Below are positions 2,013 to 18,300 of a DNA stretch of 32,954 nucleotides, in pieces (positions within the stretch are counted from its first letter, which is position 1; each line of letters starts with the position of its first letter). The position numbers and the translations under genes were made by a program. The notes below the pieces were generated by a model, which saw only the letters and a list, made by a program, of their open reading frames with translations, had not been told where the DNA came from and searched no databases. Where the stretch lies: positions 571,143 through 604,096 of the forward strand of contig NW_003120921.1 of NCBI RefSeq assembly GCF_000003605.2, written 5' to 3'. Origin of the DNA: Saccoglossus kowalevskii (taxonomy: Eukaryota; Hemichordata; Enteropneusta; Harrimaniidae).

Positions 2013-3948
2013 GTGAGTAACAAATTATTGCCATGTATGTGTTATTGTATGAGGTGTAGTGTGCCCTCTATATTGCCAAGCTTGCTGGATTACAGAGTGC
2101 TCTTTGTTACCAAGCTTGCTGGATTAGTATGCCTTCCGTGTTGCCAAGCTCGCTGAGGTATGGTGTGCCCTCTATGTTGCCAAGTTTGCTTGGGTATAGT
2201 GTGCCCTCTATGTTGCCAATCTCACTGTGGTATAGTGCGCCCTCTAAGATTGATATATGGTGTAGTACAATTTTCTTCACATAACTGATATAATATTATT
2301 TTTGACCAAGGGTAAGCTAGTAAAAGGAATGGGTGGAGCCATGGATTTAGTGGCTAGTGCCAGTGGAGGAACCAGAGTTGTAGTTACAATGGAACATGTA
2401 GCTAAAGGAGGAAAACACAAGATCTTACCGGAATGCTCATTACCACTAACTGGGGTTAAATGTGTGAATAGAATTATCACGGAAAAGGTAAGTAACTTCC
2501 TTGCCTTCTATAATATATCTTGGCCATGTTGTAGAATAGCAAGTATTTCCTGTCTGTTCATTCAGTGGTCTGTGTACAGTGTGTGGCACAAATCTGCATC
2601 TTAGTTTTATAAAAACATTAATGAATATTAGTAAGCACTGGCCTTCAGCTTTTATCCAAATTAAAATATAGATAATCACTATTACATATTGTGTGTGCAT
2701 GTCTTCAATAATATGTGGAAGTGTGGTGGTGTCTATGAACATCCACTTATTCAAATTAAAGTGTTTGCTGATTGAATGAAGTTGAACTAACTCATCAGCT
2801 TTATTTTTATACTCACTGTGATGTCTCAACACCATTGCCAGACTGATCCAACAGTCATTTTGATTTTCTATATTTATAAATGATTTATGACAGCGACGGG
2901 TTGCTGCTCACATTGTATCATTCCCGTTTTTTAGCTCTGCTGTCGTCAAAGTCGAGCGGAGCTTATAGTATTACTGATTGTCCATCGGCGTCCGGTGTCA
3001 GTCGTCGTCGCCACTTTACATTTACATTTTCGACTTCTTCTTAAAAACCACAAACTGTATAGCTGTGAAACTTTCTAGGAAGGTACCTTGGGTGCTTCTC
3101 TCTCAGATTTGTTCATTTCGTGTGGATATGTTCAATTGTCTTATTTATAGCGAATATTTTTGGTCAAAAATGCTATTTTCGACTTCTTCTTGAAAACCGC
3201 TAGCCCGAATGCTTTGATACTTGGTATGTAAGTACCTTGGGTGGACTTCTCTCAGATTTGTTCATTTTGTGATATCTTTAATTTTCTAATTTTGATGAAT
3301 ATTTTTGTAATTTTTGGTAAAAAGTGATATTTTCGACTTCTTGTTAAAAACCGAAAGTTCAATTGCTTTGATACTACATTTCTAGGTACTACATGTGGTC
3401 CTCTCTCAGATTTGTTCATTTCGTGATGATATCTTTAATTCTCTAATTTTCATGAATATTTTTGTCATTTTTGGTAAAAAGGGATATTTTCGACTTCTTG
3501 TTAAAAAATGCAAGTCTAATTGCTTTGATATTATATATAACTACATAGGCATACAGGTAGACCTCTCTCAGATTTGTTCATTTCGTGATGATTTTGTTCT
3601 TCAATTATCTAATTTTAATGAATATTTTTGATAAAAAGTTATAAAAAGTCTGAGTGCTTTAATACTATACATATTGTTCATTTTTGAATGATATCTTCTG
3701 TTCTTTAATTGCAATGTGCCTTGATAACAGCGACGCTATCTCAGCCGACAGGCTGCTAGTCATGATGTATGACCCATGTGTGTCGGTTATTTCCTCTACA
3801 GTGCGTCTTTGACATTGATAGTGAGAGTGGTCTTCACTTGGTGGAGATAGCTGATGGCGTTACTGTCGAAGACATCATTGACTCTACCGGATGCACATTC
3901 ACTGTAGCAGAAAACCTGAAACCAATGGCTCAAGTCGAAGATTCGTAA
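1937..3948 (+). CDS. OXCT1: succinyl-CoA:3-ketoacid coenzyme A transferase (SCOT), last three coding exons
   Basis: Joined exons 1937-2012, 2311-2487 and 3802-3948 encode the C-terminal 132 residues of SCOT. This mitochondrial matrix enzyme moves CoA from succinyl-CoA to acetoacetate and so starts ketone-body use. Diagnostic stretches are [73 protein letters not shown] and a final DSTGCTF block ending in DS-stop. The family is about 520 residues long, so this is roughly the last quarter, in the beta-subunit-like half. The catalytic Glu (SENG motif) lies upstream, outside the window. All junctions use GT..AG and the two internal introns are phase 0. The introns carry tandem repeats. The gene converges on the hydrolase gene that ends at 5869. 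Partial: the 5' exons are missing. Confidence 0.95.
2056..2250 (+). repeat. tandem repeat, about 38-40 bp unit, about five to six copies, in the first visible OXCT1 intron
   Basis: Degenerate units of the form gtgtgccctctatgttgcca followed by agcttgctgg and a short AT tail recur between exon A and exon B. Copies differ by several substitutions, so the array is old. Confidence 0.8.
2311..2487 (+). CDS. OXCT1: OXCT1 exon B (internal)
   Basis: The exon has exactly 59 codons, from GKLVKG to IITEK. The acceptor is ttttgaccaag and the donor is gtaagt. It is phase 0 at both ends and contains the conserved GMGGAMDL and VVTMEH segments. Confidence 0.94.
3025..3690 (+). repeat. tandem repeat, 151-162 bp unit, four copies, in the second OXCT1 intron
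   Basis: The core ctctctcagatttgttcatt recurs at about 3097, 3248, 3402 and 3564. Each core is followed by a gaatatttttg segment and ttttcgacttcttnttaaaaa. The leading part (2890-3020) with repeated gtcgtc and agcggagcttatagta looks like the head of the same interspersed element. I see no coding capacity. Confidence 0.85.
3802..3948 (+). CDS. OXCT1: OXCT1 exon C (terminal)
   Basis: The acceptor is tttcctctacag. It has 48 codons, from [10 protein letters not shown] to MAQVEDS, then TAA at 3946-3948. It matches the end of SCOT (VFDVD..GL.L.E...G.TVEDI...TGC.F.V...L.PM.Q). Confidence 0.93.
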   Translation, partial: CVFDIDSESGLHLVEIADGVTVEDIIDSTGCTFTVAENLKPMAQVEDS

Positions 3949-5868: not shown

Positions 5869-6258
5869 TTATAACTCTGTGGTTTTGTTTTGTTGAAGAA
5901 CTGTATCAATAAACCTAATACAAATTTTGTGAAGGGTTTGACCGTTTTGTCCAAAAAGCATTGCAAGACTAAAGTGGGAGCTGCCTTTTATTACGTGATA
6001 TTCACATTGATAACCATGATTCTGTAATTTCATCACAAATTCTCTTGCATCTTTATCAAGCCCAAAATCCCACTCGGCATTTGTGATGAGAAATCGTGGC
6101 ATATCATTTAGGGAGTATTTAATGTATGTAACTGGTGAAGCAATTGTCCAACAGCTTGGTTTGGATTCAAAGGTGGGGGTGAGATACAATTCTTGTAAAC
6201 ATCGACTTCCTTCTGCAAGGCTATGCAGATTGTATATTCCAGATATTGATATCACCCC
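5869..6258 (-). CDS. hydrolase exon 2 (catalytic Asp and His, stop)
   Basis: The acceptor is ttttaacag. The exon runs GVISISGIYN to QQNKTTEL-stop, 129 residues. GVISISGIYNL matches the strand after the nucleophile elbow in the family and continues exon 1 in phase 0. Confidence 0.88.
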   Translation of the reverse strand, partial: GVISISGIYNLHSLAEGSRCLQELYLTPTFESKPSCWTIASPVTYIKYSLNDMPRFLITNAEWDFGLDKDAREFVMKLQNHGYQCEYHVIKGSSHFSLAMLFGQNGQTLHKICIRFIDTVLQQNKTTEL

Positions 6259-8749
6259 CTGTTAAAATATAAAAAAAAAAATGTTAAGTTTAAAGCAAAG
6301 CTTACACAAACTAATTCTTGTGGCTTTTTTTTTTCTTTTTTTTAAATTGTTTTATTATGTTTAAATTAATGTAATAAACTTTGATGCAAACATTAGAGAT
6401 GTATAATAAAAGTTGTACTTTGTACGACTTCAAAACAATTATTTTATCGGTAGTTGTAAATACTATCAAATTTTATGCGTGTAAAATAAAATACTGTAAG
6501 ATACATTATTTTTGCTTGGAATTATTTTTTTTCTTCTATATTTTACATGAACTCGTCAAAAATTTTAAAATAAATTCCACACAAAACGCCCACAAAGTCT
6601 TTTCAGCAAAAATTAATTCCAGCTAAAATAAAGTATTTTACATTAACAATTTTACAGATGGGCAAACAAGATTCATACAGGGAGTTAGCACACTCACTAG
6701 AAAGTTCCTATGAATATTGCAATATAATAGGCGTTATCTAATTTTATGAGAACGATTTACTACATTTTGTGACAATAACTCTTTTCCCTGGTTGAACTAT
6801 GTCTAGGTTGTCTGTTTTCAAAAACTATAAAAAGGCAGTTGTAAAATATCTGTAGGAATCATAGTTACCGGTAAAAGGACTGAATATTTCTATATTTTTA
6901 ACTTGTTTGGGCGTTCCTTTTGCTGTGCTAATCCCAGTTTCCTCTCAGCATGAACACAATGAGATTAGCTTAAATATTAACTAACCAATACTTGGCTTAG
7001 CCTGAATATGCTATTATTACACGTAGTATATGACCTCTGTTACTTTATTCTTACTGTAGTAACAGAGGCCATTTACTATGTGTGATAAACGATTCAAATT
7101 TGCATAAAGTCAAGAGTTGTAAATCTATAATCAGAACGACAACTACTTGTAAACTGTTGATAACAGCCTTAGAGTTGGGGGCGGAAGAAAAGATAATAAT
7201 CCCTGTGGGTGGACCAATCAAAACTGTGCAAAATATTTTTTCTTCACCCAGTTTTGTGCTATTATTTTTTGCCATGATGAGTCGCATTAATTTTTGTTAT
7301 TACAACTGTGTGTAAGATTTTAAACCTAAAAAATAGGCATACAGAATTTTGTTTTCCATGCAGGATTTTTTTTCCAGAATTTTTTCTTGTGCATTTTTTT
7401 TTATAATTCTGCCACCACGAGTTTCTAATGGTCAACCCCCTTAGCAATATATGTTGGTCACTGATAATGATAAAACAGAACTTATTGACTTTTCTCAGCC
7501 CTCACTCCCACTTCTTCTTATTGCTCTTGTCTTAGAAGTTTGCCATTAGTTATTTGGGTAACTGTGGTGGTGATTTTTGAGAAAAAAATTGAAAAAACAA
7601 TCCTACATAGGAAATACAAAATTCTTGCTCAAAAGAAAGTGGACAAAAGTAATAATGATTAGCACTATTTTTGTAACATTTCCTGTCCCAGAATCTACCC
7701 ATTATCAATCGCTTGCTTACCTTGATATCGCAGAGATCGAGGCCGACTTCTTGTAGGTAAACATCAGAATTTAGCGTTAGAAACGATACCATATGACCAC
7801 CTGCCGAGTAGCCACAGAGGAATAATTTACGAATGTTAAAGAGTTTGGTTATTATTCCATATTTACGAACCCACCGTATGCTCTGCGCGATGGATCTTAT
7901 CTGTGATGGGTGTTTCAGTGTGGGGACATCGGCAAAATAGACCGTAAGCAGAATCACCTGGGACAAGAATACCAACAACACTGACGACAGAGATATAGAA
8001 TGTTCGATGCTCAATAAGTCGTATTTCGTGCACAGGTACCCACAGAGACCGGCGAATACGGTGATTAAGGCAACTGAGTGTGGTCGCAAGGAAGGGTAGT
8101 TCTTTCTGTGAAGGCACAGTGCGATTATCCATACCACGATCTGAGACAACCCCACATAAATACACAATGTTGACAATACAGGGGTTGACATTGCGCCATG
8201 AAACACTGCAAATTGTACAAAATATTGAACGCCAAAATTACCGGTTGTAATAAAAAGCAACAATTGAGCAAGACAAACTGCCAGCGTTAACAAAATCCCA
8301 ACTGACGCGATGGACATAACAAAAGACAAAAACATCTCTACAAGGACAAATGAAAGTTGAAGTCGGCTTAATGGGTACGATATCACGGCGCAAGCGATAC
8401 CGCGTTTTGCGAAAGTCTCGCCGACATTGGAATATGTCCCGTAATATCGCTGTAAAAAGTACATGAGTAAATTAGTATCGTAGGAGGACATAAAATGATT
8501 CCAAGATTGTCTGTCTCCACGTCGCCAGCCCCCGCCATGTACAAAAACTACGACTGGAGGAGAAGCCACTCCTGTATATGTTTGACCTCCATTCAGGGAC
8601 ACGTATGGAAGTGGACGTGTCGGCAGATACAAGTCAAGACAATGTTTATCCATTCCATTTTTACGTCGAATTGATTTCTTGTGCCGTCTTTCAATATTTT
8701 TATCTGGTTGTACGAGATAGTTTACATCGTAGATAACCCTGAAATCCAT
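5869..8749 (-). CDS. membrane-embedded alpha/beta hydrolase, kynurenine formamidase / isoprenylcysteine methylesterase-like, two exons
   Basis: Exons 8749-7721 and 6258-5869 join at phase 0 to give about 472 residues. The oxyanion-hole motif HGGGW is at residues 71-75. The nucleophile elbow GYSAGGH is at 313-319 (Ser315). Exon 2 gives the acid (ITNAEWDFG, Asp407) and the His (GSSHFS, His438), a complete Ser-Asp-His triad. This pattern fits the carboxylesterase/BD-FAE branch that includes kynurenine formamidase and plant ICME. Residues about 132-273, between the strand ending ISYPLSR and the nucleophile elbow, form four or five very hydrophobic segments. The active site would thus be interrupted by a membrane domain. 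There is no signal peptide; the start MDFRVIYDVN opens the long frame. The substrate cannot be told from sequence. The gene converges with OXCT1. Confidence 0.87.
6259..7720. other. single intron of the hydrolase gene
   Basis: This is AT-rich intron sequence with poly-T/poly-A runs. I see no exon, element or ordered repeat in it. Confidence 0.7.
7721..8749 (-). CDS. hydrolase exon 1 (start codon, HGGGW, membrane block, GYSAGGH)
   Basis: It holds 343 codons from ATG at 8749 to DLCDIK, then donor gtaagc. The frame stays open past the donor to 7550, but homology stops at the splice site, so the extra residues there are intron read-through. Confidence 0.88.
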
Positions 8750-8808
8750 AAGATATTATCAATTTAGTGTTACGTAGGAATGTATCAAGTGATTTGTCAG
8801 GTGATCAC

Positions 8809-8817
8809 TCACGTGAC
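8809..8817. promoter_or_regulatory. E-box, CLEAR-like palindrome (TCACGTGAC) upstream of the hydrolase gene
   Basis: It lies about 60 bases before the ATG on the minus strand. The core CACGTG binds bHLH-Zip factors; the extended GTCACGTGA resembles the TFEB/MITF site in vertebrates. A single site, inferred only from position and motif. Confidence 0.35.
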
Positions 8818-8888
8818 CCTCCGTAGACTTCTGTTTCACCAGGGGTCAACCCACAGTCAGCTGGCGCACATCTGATATAATAAAACAA

Positions 8889-9031
8889 CGTTGTGTCGTC
8901 ACCGGAAGCGCTGTCCCAGCACAAACCTGTGTTGGCTGGTTCCCGCCTCAAGTGTCATGGCGTACCAAGCCACAAGAGGCCGGTAACTCGTCGTGTCGTC
9001 ACCGGAAGCGCTGTCCCAGCACAAACCTGTG
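8889..9031 (+). repeat. repeat module A, one long and one short copy in tandem
   Basis: The 85-90 bp module begins cgttgtgtcgtcaccggaag and includes cgctgtcccagcacaaacct. It occurs at 8889-8976 and again, shortened, at 8989-9031. Further copies lie at 22954-23037, and a decayed one at about 21176-21225. It starts only 140 bases upstream of the hydrolase ATG. Confidence 0.85.
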
Positions 9032-9592
9032 TCATATGACGCCTTACTAGCCGATTTTGGCTAAAATTCCGCTCCGCCGCCTCTTTACAACAGTATTTAT
9101 ACGCGGAACTTGATATTGCTTTTTACAATTTGGGTTGCCTTTGAATCACATATTTTTAGTGAAATATTGTTTATAGAGTGAAATATTATTGTCACACATA
9201 ATTCAATCTTTGAAACAACAGAAACTAACACATAATAACGATAATCAAATTTGTGTTTGAAGTTCGAAAGTAGTTGCGTTATTTCCGGTTTCAACTAGTT
9301 CGAAAATAGAACGTCCTTGAGCGCAATAAAATCACGCTTAGAACTCCGTCCGAACCAGACTCTAGCAGCGTAAACTTATTGCAATTTGGGCCCAGTTTGT
9401 TCTTACAAGTTTTCTAAGTTTCATTTATCATTATTTAGTAAACAGGTCTCTAGAACGATTAAATATATCCGTAAAATACGTGCCAATCGACGATTGACTT
9501 CGAAACGTTCGAAATTTCGAACAAACTCCCGGCACACCTTGCGCGATATGCGTCAGATCGGTGTAGAAGACGCCGAACTGCAGCGTCAATGA
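9032..9592 (+). repeat. repeat module B plus coding-like tail C
   Basis: This stretch is shared with 23086-23766. Module B begins with tatgacgccttactagccga and includes ttccgctccgccgcctcttt. It ends in a basic, coding-like tail (9479-9592; peptide blocks RANRRLTSKRSKFR and HTLRDMRQIGVEDAELQRQ, then TGA). A short copy of the last words (gaccttcagcgtcaatgg) stands alone at 9700-9717. No known transposase or RT is visible, so this is probably a non-autonomous mobile or duplicated cassette. Confidence 0.8.
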
Positions 9593-10089
9593 ATAAAATA
9601 AATACGATATTTACTATATGGGGGCCGCCATCTTGAATGACGCATAAAACTAAATAAGAGACAAGTTGTGAAACGCGTTTTTCAGATTCTTACAAATCAG
9701 GACCTTCAGCGTCAATGGCCTCTCCGTGTAAAGAATGATCTAGTGAATCTCTAGCAACTACAGGGTGGGGATGAGAAAAATGGGGAAATCGTTTCATTTG
9801 CATAAATAAACACATGAGCATTCACCCTTTTCGTGTAAGGTAAGAATGACCTGGCGAATCTCTACGCAACAACTGGGAGGGGATGAAAAAGGGGGAAAAT
9901 CATCTTATATTTGTTTTTCAAAATGTATCAAAAATATTTCTGATAACCAACATGGCAGTTCTAAATTGACTGATTCTGTCATTACGAGCTAAAAAAAAAA
10001 TCGAAAAAATGAAGTAAATATATCTTCGACTCCCGTGTGCGAAGCGGTTGTTCAGAGTTCAACCAGTATCTCATATATGTATATATGAT
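9593..10089. other. non-coding spacer
   Basis: I see no gene. A GCCGCCATCTTGA word at 9624-9636 matches the YY1 core. Two related segments (about 9715-9800 and 9835-9900, both with gaatctct.gcaac and a gaaaaa.ggggaaat tail) form an imperfect direct repeat. Confidence 0.5.
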
Positions 10090-10495
10090 CAGAGGTACAT
10101 TACTTAGGGTTTGCAACTCGCATAGTACTGTATGGTGACATCATGTCAAGATCCCATTCAAGTCTCTTCTTGTAAATAGCGAGACTGAGGCTACGACCTT
10201 CTGACATGACGCATATCAATGTTCAAGGTTTGTATTAAATGAAAAAAATAAACTTTTCTTGACACTATCATAGTGAAAAATGTAATACATCGAAAATGTA
10301 CAGAAAATATAGTTCTCGTAATCCGTCATATCGTGGGCAGCTATTTTGATCCACCTGGACATCCCAGTATCCTAGTTACCTCGGGCATGCGCATTCGCAT
10401 TTTTTCTGAGTTGGAACGTTTATGCGAGAGCGAGATTGTGACAGGATCTTGGTATCATGTCACCGTAGTTACAAACCCCAAGTAATGTACCTCTG
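10090..10495. mobile_element. MITE with long terminal inverted repeats (about 60 bp), hAT-like ends
   Basis: The left end CAGAGGTACATTACTTAGGG and the right end CCCCAAGTAATGTACCTCTG are inverted copies. The similarity runs inward for about 60 bases (ggtgacat.atg..aagatc on one side, its complement on the other). The flanks share ATATGAT on both sides, a possible 7-8 bp target duplication, though the AT-palindromic context makes the border uncertain. The CAGRG start is hAT-like. The interior (about 280 bases) has no transposase. Confidence 0.75.
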
Positions 10496-10779
10496 ATATG
10501 ATATATAGCCAGGATTACTTCATAGCTGAGTTTGTGCTGTTTCCTCGACTTTAGCCTTTTTCAGAGACCATAGCCCATACATAATACAGTGGTACGCACC
10601 TCAGCAACATAAAACATTCTGTGACGTAGCTCCGCCCGAGGATATCTAATGCTTAATCCTACACATCCTCTTACAGTTTTGAAAGAAGTTCTAAGACTAG
10701 TGTCGTCTCTGTATTAGTGAGTATCTTACTATTATTCATGAATCCACGTTTGTTAGTACCCGTTCGGACGCAGTCCGAA

Positions 10780-11779
10780 AACGGGGACTTGTATGTTTTG
10801 ACCTCCGTGTGTCCGGGCGTGCGTCCGTGCGTGCGTCCGGACCTGTATCTTAGAAATGCCTGGACCAATCACAATCAAACTTCACACATACATCATACAT
10901 GATATTATACATATGCACGTCAATTTGTTTCACGATCTGATTCAAGATGGTCGAATAGCGGCCATTTTGTTCTAACAAATCCTAAAAATCAAGCATTTCT
11001 TGGATTTTGTTCAAACTTGGTATACATTAGACATTAAGGGACCTTGATGCAAATAATTTTGTTTTTCAGATAAGATTCAAAATGGCCGACTGGCGGCCAT
11101 TTAGTTTTAATGAATGTGGTTCTCGTGCCATATCTCTTACTTGCTTTCACTGATTTTGTTCAAATTTTAAATATTCATTATAAATCATGTCATAGATAGA
11201 CAGATATTGGTTTGACAATCATATTCAAAATGGCCAAATGGTGGCCATTTTTGTGCTAAAAAATCATCAAATATCAAGCATTTCTGGCATTTATGGATGG
11301 ATTTCGTTCAAACTTGGTACACACATTAGACATTACGGGTTCCTGATGCACGTCATTTTATTTTTCAGATTGGATTCAAAATGGCTGTCTAGCGGCCATT
11401 TTGTTTTAATGATTGGGCTTCTAGACCCATATCTCCGACTTGTTTTGACTGATTATGTTAAAATTTTAAATATTCATTATACATCATGCCATAGATAAAC
11501 AGATATATTGGTTTGACGATCCTATTCAGAATGGCGGAATGGTGGTCATTTTTGTGCTAAAAAATCATCAAATATCAAGCATTTCTGGCATTTATGGATG
11601 GATTTTGTTCAAACTTGGTACACACATTAGACATTACATTACGTCATTTTATTTTTCTGATTGGATTCAAAATGGCTGACTGGCGGCCATTTTGTTTTAA
11701 TGATTGGGCTTTTAGAGCCATATCTCTTAAATGCTTTGACTGATTATATTCAAATTGTATATAATTATTATACATCATG

Positions 11780-11849
<70 letters not shown>

Positions 11850-11960
11850 TCAAAATGATTTTGAATGCTATTCCAGAGCAATATCTCTCAATATGGACAA
11901 GTACTTGTTTTCCCTGAATTCAACATCAGTAAAGTTGAACAAACTGTAAATATTAGAGTT
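10780..11960 (+). repeat. higher-order tandem array with about 150 bp subunits in alternating pairs, about 300 bp dimers
   Basis: The phrase tcaaaatggc.gactggcggccatt recurs at about 10945, 11080, 11224, 11377, 11525 and 11668. Alternate copies are most alike: 11224 with 11525 share gtgctaaaaaatcatcaaat, and 11377 with 11668 share gttttaatgattgggctt. The head (10780-10860) is rich in cgtgcgtccg words. A TA microsatellite splits the last unit, whose remains continue to about 11960. Confidence 0.85.
11780..11842. repeat. (TA)n microsatellite, about 31 units
   Basis: Uninterrupted TA dinucleotides expanded inside a unit of the surrounding array. Confidence 0.97.
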
Positions 11961-12187
11961 AGCTAACACTTAATATAACATCATAGTTTCTCAGAATTGA
12001 ACTAACTACTAAACTATTTATCTGTCCATTTCTGTGAATGACTATGAATCTAAACGTTCTGGTATTCTAATGATTTTTTCAGATTGAGTCGTTCTTTGTT
12101 GAATCAAGTGTACATTTATCTGCATATAACTGTGGTTTAACTAACTGAGATCCTTTACTTTATAAATCAGTGCTTTCCTGTATCGTC

Positions 12188-12562
12188 TTACAGTGCCTTT
12201 TTAAGTTGCTTTTTTAAACTTGGAAGTACTGGCAATTGTGGCGGGGGGTGTAGTATGTGAGGTGACATTCCTGTAAATCCCGTAGTGTTAAGAAGTGGCA
12301 TTAGAAGTGTATGATCTGTTTCTGGTGTGAAGTACATTCCGAGTACATAATCAGTGAATTTTTCACATGCCAAAATTGCTGCAGGTACTTCTTTTTCTAC
12401 GACCGCATATCGTTTATCTGTATCGCCGAGAGATCGCGAAGCGTAGCAAATAGGGCATCGTTTTCCATTATCTTGTATTTTCATTAATACTGCACCGTTG
12501 CCTGTAGTGGATGCATCAGCTGCGATGATAGTTGGACGATTTGGATCAACTGTATTGTATGC
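12188..12562 (-). mobile_element. Ty3/gypsy retrotransposon remnant: end of RT linker and RNase H domain
   Basis: The minus frame is open from 12562 (a TAA precedes it at 12563-12565) down to 12188. It begins AYNTVDPNRPTIIAADAS and runs through GNGAVLM, PICYASRSLGDTDKRYAV, EKE, ACEKFTDYVLGM and PETDHTLLMPLLN. These are the RNase H landmarks of Ty3/gypsy polyproteins (Asp in ADAS, Glu in EKE, Asp in TDH). After LLN the sequence departs from the family. No RT core, integrase or LTR is nearby, so it is a dead fragment. Confidence 0.85.
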
Positions 12563-15325: not shown

Positions 15326-18300
15326 CTTTAAATAAAAATATACTTTAGCAATTTAGTAGCGCAACAGTCAAGTTCATGATTTGAATAAAAGAGAATTATT
15401 TTGCAAAAGAGCCTAATTGAGGTTTCTGATCTCCCTGAAAACAACAACAACAACAACAACAACAACAATAAGAAGTATATATTGCACTCACCACAATATG
15501 AGACAAGAACCATCACCGTCGGGTTCATTTGGTTGAAACAGTGCCGGATCAACTGAGATTTTGGAACCGTCACTGTAGGTAATTATATTGTCTGAAATCC
15601 TGCCATCAACCCAGAAATTTATATTTACTCCATTTGTTGCAATTACAACCTGAGCACGTTCCAAACTGGCTTGATCAGTAATTTGGTGAAGAGATCCAGA
15701 TTCACACTGAGCATTTCCTGGAAGTGATGGGACTGCACTAATCACAGGCATTGCTGTGTGATATAACATTAACATAAATAATACTTTTATTGACTTATCA
15801 TTAAACCATCTCTAAACTCGGCTTCAGCTCCAAGCTTGTATACTAATATCTGAGCCAATTGATTTTTATACCAATAACCAGTAATATAAATAACAAAATA
15901 AATATATTTATATATATTAATACACAAAAACACAATATATGCTAATAAACCATATAACATCAACTTATTATCAATTGCATAGTAACGATTTGGAATAAAC
16001 TAATAACAATAATAACAAACATTGACACTGTCACCGTTTGGTATTGCCAGTAGTTAAGTACTACGTTCAGAACAAGTCACGAAGGGCTCAATACTCAATG
16101 GCAGTACATGCAACAAGTAGTGAAACACAGACAGAGACACCAGCATGGATACTAAACAAAAAAATATGGTCCCTGGTCGTTCTTTTGTGTCGGAATTTCG
16201 AAAAAAAATCATGATGTGCATGAATTTGCAACCAAGTTTGTTGGTTATACTTTGAATGAAATCACCCTGTTTACTCTCCGAAATGAGAAACATTTTTTTG
16301 AAAAAATCTATGCCATTTCACTACCCTTTGGTTTCAATCTGAGTATAGTAAACGTGTGCATACATGTAAGTTGATCACGTGAAACATCAGCAAGGAATCT
16401 GCATGGAGATGATTAGATTAAAACCACAATATGTATGATCATGATACATAGTTCGAATGAAATCGACCGACTCATACACTGTAACGGTCACGTTCAAGTA
16501 TCACAATTCATCAAATTTAGAGACCTAAATGGTCGCCAGTCAGCCATATTTTATCAAATACTGTTTGATTGAAATGTGAAAGAAAAATGAAAATGGAAAT
16601 GGATCCGACGGGACGAATGCACAGACGGAACCCAAATAAAATCAATATTATGTACCTAATTATTTCCAAAGATATTAAAATATAATTCAAATTACACTTT
16701 ACCCGAACATATGTACTTTTGCTGCTTGTTGCATGATGTATCCAGTTACTCAACCACCTTTAAACATAAGAACATACAGTATATTAAAAAAAACACAAAA
16801 ACTAATACTATACACATATTATTAGTATAATATTACAAATATTCACAGTATTTTGATCTTACCGCAAATGAAGACAAGAGCCACTTCCGTCGGGTTCATT
16901 ATCGTGAAATAATGATGGGTCAGCCGTCATTCTTAAGCCATCACTGAATGTAATTAAGCTACCTTCAATAGTACCATCAATCCAGTAATTGTTAGTATCT
17001 CCATTTGCGAGTAATGCAGACCTTGCCCAATTCAAACTAGCCTCGCTATTAACTTTGTACGGGAATTCACACTGAGTATTGGTCGGAAGTGTTGATTCGG
17101 TACTGACTTTAACTCCTGCTTTACAGTGCAATGTGAAAAACACAATAAAAACACAGTGTAAATTAATTGAATCTTGATCCTGTTATTCGAAAAAAACGAA
17201 CAATATACGAAATTCGAAATCGAATAAATGGTCAATAATCCGTCAAACGCATAGCTACTTTTCTGGACCTCTTTTCTGGCATACTTTTATTATGAAGAAT
17301 CTCGTTAACTCATTAACTACTAGTTCAGGTATTTTCTTTCATTAGCAACCATGACTTTTAGAGATACACCTGCCTGTGCAATTATACATTATATTAGCCA
17401 ACAGAATATCAGCGGTACTGAGTTTCTCACGTGAGCCCATTTTATCTTGGTCAGCTGGGTTATTTGCTGTCATTGTATAAGAGCCATTCAAGCTAAAATA
17501 CTGAATTCATTTATTGGTTAGTCAACATTACAACAATAAATGCATACTAATGTCAATTTAATAATTTAATATATTCCCCTTGTGACAATCAATGTGTCCG
17601 TTTTTAATTGTGTTAAACGTCAAAGTTTCAATTCAAACGAGGATTGACAAATATATTCTTACTTTGGCCCCAAAATGCATCACTGATCCAATGTCGTATG
17701 GCACGTTGTATGTGTTGAGTAATTGCTTATCAGTTACATCGAAGTTGTGCTTTTCACCGGGTATAACATTTTCATAGTGAACTGTAATATAATTGATTCT
17801 ATCCCATCGAGTTTGTTCATGCCAAAATCCTATTGCATGACCAATTTCATGAGCTATAGTTCTTTTCTATTAATAACAAAATAAAGAACTAGTCACGATC
17901 TGAGAACATATATTTCCTACTAAAATGTTGGTGTTGATGTATAATTTTACACAACTGTATTTCTTTGTTAATTTTAGAACTAGTGGGCATAATTACATTG
18001 ATACAGGTCAAAAAAGAAGACAAAACCTAAAGTGGGCACCACATTAATGCTACGTTTAGCAAATATATTCAAATATAACGGGTAAAATTTAGACATCTAG
18101 AATTTTTTGTCACAACTTGTCAAGAACATGATTGAATAGATTTCATGGGTTAAATTTAATTTAACGCAGTATTGGTTAGTATGTTTAAAACATAACGTGT
18201 ATTTGGTCCGAGTCGATTTATATATTTCTGCAGATAATATTGTCAGGTGGCTCCACATTAAACTCGTATAAAATTCTGGAAATCATAAATTCTATATAAA

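Follow-up and report, generated by a model that had tools for sequence, protein, structure and literature searches.

What kind of protein is encoded by a hydrolase gene in which the oxyanion motif and the nucleophile elbow lie far apart, with a long hydrophobic stretch between them? This question is raised by a two-exon gene on the minus strand of a 32,954-nucleotide stretch of DNA (the window, whose coordinates are used throughout) from the hemichordate Saccoglossus kowalevskii (contig NW_003120921.1, positions 571,143 to 604,096). Its joined frame comprises 472 amino acids and a stop codon. We put the probability at roughly 0.7 that it encodes a membrane-embedded serine hydrolase of the BD-FAE/alpha/beta hydrolase-3 type that acts at the bilayer on a hydrophobic ester.

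Alignment with bacterial relatives showed that the predicted protein has a complete hydrolase core, with an oxyanion motif and a Ser–Asp–His triad, and that this core is broken after strand beta-4 by a block absent from those relatives. On the whole protein, the Pfam family BD-FAE (PF20434) scored 62.4 bits against a cut-off of 26.8 (5.5e-17), in two stretches, and Abhydrolase_3 (PF07859) scored 48.4 bits against a cut-off of 25 (1.3e-12); among NCBIfam models none was listed at its own cut-off, the best reaching 43.4 bits against 320. With a three-row alignment as query, species genomes yielded at least 475 relatives among 591 candidate stretches. We kept the best 80 of these, all bacterial by title, and added 3 loci from a viral collection in which 80 stretches matched a pattern, so that 83 loci were examined. 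In twelve of the 83 no single frame held the two motifs, and the spacing count leaves these out; 70 of the other 71 were aligned, including the viral-collection loci L009 and L010, and L057 was too short. The closest loci among the best 80 of at least 475 (L012–L017) are 33–35% identical over 254–269 aligned residues. Residues H71, G72, G73 and W75 were each identical in 70/70 relatives, which had been selected by the pattern HGGx[WFY], and the Ser315 column held serine in all 70, selected by the pattern GxSAG; the full identity at HGG, Trp75 and Ser315 thus arises partly from this selection. The Asp407 column was acidic in 44 of the 70 (Asp in 33, Glu in 11), with another residue or a gap in 26. 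Exon 1 alone found no relative in viral and prokaryote collections.

We found that 242 residues separate the start of HGGGW from the start of GYSAG, against 70–81 (median 71) in the 71 of 83 loci with both motifs in one frame. This count uses the longest frame holding both motifs, and for L018 it took the neighbouring frame 2301–3302 rather than the matched 1501–2253. None of the 71 loci had a 19-residue stretch with a Kyte–Doolittle mean above 1.6 between the motifs. The run from beta-4 to alpha-B that is uninterrupted in the relatives is split, by alignment, by 147 extra residues. Residues 132–273 of this block hold only four Lys/Arg and three Asp/Glu in 142 positions, and their mean hydropathy is 1.37, against −0.22 elsewhere. 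Without residues 132–273, the BD-FAE score climbed from 62.4 to 72.0 bits. Its profile match and catalytic residues make the protein one of the BD-FAE type; it departs from that type by the predicted membrane block inside its core, and we therefore class it as a variant. The original prediction, made from the DNA letters, had located both motifs where the joined frame has them, had set a separation of about 240 residues against roughly 70–90 in ordinary members of the fold, and had placed an intact Asp and His of the triad in exon 2, all of which we could confirm. Its insertion of 140 residues at 132–273 also stands, with the borders corrected to 129–275. A DUF6524 match to the block (18.3 bits, cut-off 27) was rejected as membrane composition.

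Three further insertions relative to the 70 relatives, at residues 17–30, 45–59 and 85–102, had gone unlisted. When 18 amino acids (84–101) were deleted as well, the BD-FAE score rose from 72.0 to 79.0 bits in a single continuous match. With both insertions removed, and only then, the steryl acetyl hydrolase family (PF10340) scored 25.2 bits (cut-off 21); with one removed it scored 15.9, and it was absent from the match list of the whole protein. As a pointer to a sterol ester substrate, this match is a weak hint at most. The DNA of the insertion at 85–102 has at its end a sequence resembling a branch point followed by an acceptor (GATACTAATTTACTCATGTACTTTTTACAG). A reading of this insertion as a small intron was rejected, as by eye there is no in-phase GT upstream that preserves HGGGW, and it was kept as coding.

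The putative start codon at 8749 is the first ATG in the exon 1 frame, and an open run of 343 codons has a chance of about 1.7e-9, given the stop frequency on that strand. The intron donor, AAG/GTAAGC, had the top score of 278 GT sites with exon ends (7700–12499, minus strand) under a simple consensus matrix, and a long T tract precedes the acceptor. The block has no stops in 147 codons, its third-position GC content exceeds that of the intron, and its codon choice departs from intron composition (z = 3.65).

We modelled exon 1 (residues 1–343) with AlphaFold2, using 40 bacterial relatives. The model rebuilt the esterase core and turned the extra block into four long helices that exit after beta-4 at lower confidence; outside the insertion, 12 of 20 ten-residue blocks reached a predicted local distance difference test (pLDDT) score of 80. 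The model and the alignment of the 70 relatives agree in placing the insertion behind the strand that follows the oxyanion loop and ahead of the nucleophile elbow, as had been predicted. The prediction had further proposed four to five hydrophobic segments and modelling of the joined protein: the block is indeed hydrophobic, and the exon 1 model gives four long helices and a short one at 175–185 instead. Helix 1 is 41 residues long because two adjoining hydrophobic stretches merge in it. A Kyte–Doolittle mean above 1.5 was found for four 19-residue segments (130–148, 150–168, 195–213 and 252–270; means 1.94–2.51). On the Wimley–White scale, six segments of the block were favourable, at −3.7 (223–241), −5.0 (174–192) and up to −12.2 (254–272), as were four stretches outside it, at −0.5 to −4.2. 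Together, these data support a predicted block that is hydrophobic, helical and probably multi-pass at this place in the fold; its bundle of about four helices very probably sits in a membrane. The coordinates are collected below.

Table 1. Features of the hydrolase gene in the window, with residue numbers of the joined frame.
Feature	Position	Strand	Residues and description	Basis
Exon 1	7721..8749	−	1–343; N-terminal strands through beta-5, oxyanion loop, membrane block (predicted), nucleophile elbow	Open frame, alignment to 40 bacterial relatives, AlphaFold2 model
Intron	6259..7720	−	GT–AG, phase 0; donor AAGGTAAGC; acceptor end TTTATATTTTAACAG	Predicted from sequence
Exon 2	5869..6258	−	344–472 and stop; holds catalytic Asp and His	Aligned with 70 relatives
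HGGGW oxyanion motif	8525..8539	−	71–75
Smaller insertion after oxyanion loop	8444..8497	−	85–102, HFMSSYDTNLLMYFLQRY	Missing from >90% of 70 relatives
Inserted hydrophobic block	7925..8365	−	129–275 (147 amino acids, 441 bases)	Gap in >90% of 70 relatives
Block helix 1	8243..8365	−	129–169; hydrophobic 130–148 and 150–168	pLDDT 69–78 (ten-residue blocks 131–170)
Block helix 2	8105..8182	−	190–215; hydrophobic 195–213	pLDDT about 53–62
Block helix 3	8024..8083	−	223–242; weakest segment	pLDDT about 59–67
Block helix 4	7934..7990	−	254–272; hydrophobic 252–270	pLDDT about 67–76
Catalytic Ser315	7805..7807	−	In GYSAGGH (313–319)	Sequence comparison
Probable catalytic Asp407	6067..6069	−	In AEWDF starting at 404	Sequence comparison
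Catalytic His438	5974..5976	−	In SSHF starting at 436	His in 70/70 relatives

How might such a bundle be oriented? The number of crossings must be even, because the block starts from and returns to the same folded domain. Counting Lys and Arg with the helix ends of the model, we found 3 ahead of helix 1 and then 0, 2, 0 and 6 following helices 1, 2, 3 and 4 in turn (3, 0, 3, 0 and 6 with earlier assumed boundaries). With the positive-inside rule, these loop charges suggest that both ends of the block return to the cytosolic side, which would make the catalytic domain cytosolic. The C-terminal end of beta-4 lies on the active-site face of the alpha/beta hydrolase fold. Because the block exits at this end, it is a sound inference, in line with the original prediction, that the active site is held near the membrane. 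We therefore propose that the helices would cross the membrane four times as two hairpins, with the catalytic domain facing the cytosol, perhaps at the endoplasmic reticulum. The bundle would occupy the lid position and put the catalytic Ser at the bilayer, since the C-terminal strand ends face the active site. A hydrophobic ester (or amide) could then enter sideways from the bilayer, form an acyl-enzyme with Ser315 as it is cleaved, and depart, a course that PGAP1 follows with a different arrangement. The substrate is probably a hydrophobic ester, and the enzyme may act on fatty or other membrane-borne molecules.

Several observations weigh against this reading. In the alignment a single sequence covers the block, whose pLDDT values of 40–78 fall below 50 at 173–193, and the oxyanion stretch 71–80 reaches only 65. 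The model covers exon 1 without exon 2 and is poor without the relatives (pLDDT 38.6), and Foldseek gave no match at E ≤ 0.001 in two libraries, one of them of viral models. Helix 3 (−3.7) is weaker on the Wimley–White scale than two stretches outside the block, 81–99 and 309–327 (−4.2 each), and weaker than 174–192, which is not a membrane helix in the model; it is also missing from the Kyte–Doolittle segments above 1.5, and those four segments would give a different four-crossing layout. The end of helix 3 that should lie outside carries a charged residue, Lys242. Finally, the codon test did not pick out the true frame and gave a z of only 1.19 for exon 2, so that the codon evidence for the block as coding is supportive only.

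The weakness of helix 3, together with Glu137 within the first hydrophobic stretch, would also fit a large hydrophobic helical cap that packs onto the soluble enzyme or rests on one leaflet and does not span the membrane, and lids after beta-4 are described for several hydrolase families in PMC11878206. We consider such a cap unlikely, as only seven charges in 142 residues, together with four 19-residue stretches whose mean hydropathy exceeds 1.9, would be most unexpected in a soluble cap. The block might instead be missing from the mature protein, either as an unspliced in-frame intron or because the gene copy is decaying or misassembled. Its 441 bases are divisible by three, 15 in-frame GT/AG pairs (donor range 118–141, acceptor range 258–289) could excise most of it, and the gene is known here from one sequence. 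Against these readings stand 147 stop-free codons, a GC content above that of the actual intron and codon choice unlike it; the candidate donors are absent from the 25 best-scoring GT sites listed, and, checked by hand, 11 of the 15 pairs would leave some of the block in place and the remaining 4 would damage beta-4. The flanks also retain 33–35% identity with the closest bacteria among the best 80 of at least 475. Loss of the block by any of these routes seems very improbable.

A different function for a membrane-bound protein is that of an animal counterpart of plant isoprenylcysteine methylesterase (ICME), which would demethylate prenylated proteins in the endoplasmic reticulum. Like the proposed enzyme, plant ICME is a membrane-bound esterase: PMC5171882 groups it in one wider clade with kynurenine formamidases and bacterial esterases related to them, and plant ICMEs are reported as endoplasmic reticulum and Golgi membrane proteins in PMC3017835. 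This link was drawn from published descriptions. In plant ICME the putative membrane helix lies ahead of the catalytic core; the one deleted in PMC3017835 comprises residues 102–124. We regard this identity as quite unlikely, and the prenylated substrate suggested in the original prediction has its only ground in the distant link to plant ICME. The membrane-embedded BD-FAE-type hydrolase remains our preferred reading.

To place the gene in its genome, we searched the S. kowalevskii assembly (572 Mb, 4830 contigs) with exon 1 and found only exon 1 itself at E ≤ 0.01, with one candidate scored. A BD-FAE family search of the same genome gave 17 places, 8 of which were fetched. Five of them pass from beta-4 to the elbow with no comparable block: L001, L002, L004 and L006, which look AADAC-like, and L007, by eye a type-B carboxylesterase. 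L003 and L005 showed just an HGGG exon and L008 nothing, and these three are left out of the comparison. This search misses family members, because the window's own gene is absent from its list.

Upstream of the gene, a candidate coding stretch (9689–9462, minus strand) has a donor at 9538 (7.8 bits) whose phase is compatible with an acceptor at 8739; its frame lacks an ATG. The window contains four ACCGGAAG matches, of which two ETS-like sites, at 8901 and 9001, would fit a promoter directly upstream of the ATG at 8749. Positions 8889–9032 hold a 44-base repeat in two copies 100 bases apart, with one ACCGGAAG ETS-like site per copy, about 150–250 bases 5′ of the ATG. A GCCGCCAT site (YY1-like) lies at 9624–9631, near the good minus-strand donor at 9538; together they possibly mark a promoter or first exon of the hydrolase gene or of another gene.

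Elsewhere in the window, all on the minus strand, the frame 1–588 encodes a Tc5-type transposase DNA-binding domain (PF03221, 1.7e-7) and 12188–12562 a retroelement RNase H-like domain (PF17917, 2.5e-21). Two similar frames, 15488–15811 and 16859–17182, have the common text W.DG.I....IT.SDG.....DP.LF..NEPDG.GSCL; by eye they resemble C-type-lectin-like family exons, with no Pfam match at 0.1.

Finally, we compared the protein with known systems. Bacterial BD-FAE-type hydrolases such as L012–L017 share its core, the HGGxW motif, the GxSAG elbow and the catalytic His, and lack the membrane block. With residues 132–273 removed from the query, the best sequence matches among solved structures were feruloyl esterase 4zrs (7.9e-8) and esterase B 4n5h (5.8e-6); 4zrs and esterase B (4n5h/4n5i) match the fold on both sides of the block and have in the alignments a short link after beta-4 where the hydrolase has the block. 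Drosophila kynurenine formamidase (4e11/4e14/4e15) came next at 2.6e-5, in third place among the 7 sequences listed, after these two esterases; its motif reads HGGYW, and the alignment shows nothing inserted in it. The protein of PMC13092109 is unrelated and has a single helix.

Among membrane enzymes, the GPI-inositol deacylase PGAP1 is an alpha/beta hydrolase with a lipid cavity common to its lipase domain and membrane helices (PMC10761859). This lateral cavity is a precedent for the proposed mechanism in a different architecture: PGAP1 has ten membrane helices in a separate domain, a jelly-roll domain and lumenal products, so that the likeness is at most functional. Abhydrolase_9 (with Abhydrolase_9_N) and DUF687 also join an alpha/beta hydrolase to a membrane helix bundle, and the section of PMC11878206 on them presents the bundle as a domain joined on (at the C-terminus in DUF687) and does not describe it inside the fold. 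Our literature searches, which were weak, partly because 'alpha beta hydrolase' misses the slash spelling, found no paper on a bundle inserted after beta-4. With somewhat less than even confidence, we suggest that the architecture may be an undescribed one, in which a four-helix membrane bundle sits at the beta-4 lid position, the lid has become a membrane domain, and lipids reach the Ser only from within the bilayer. Automatic annotation can break such proteins into two weaker domain matches, and with such a bundle the gene would be a specific candidate for a membrane enzyme that works on hydrophobic esters. Alpha/beta hydrolases commonly reach lipids by a mobile lid or by separately added membrane helices; a bundle grown inside the fold at the lid position would be another route from a soluble esterase to a membrane enzyme.
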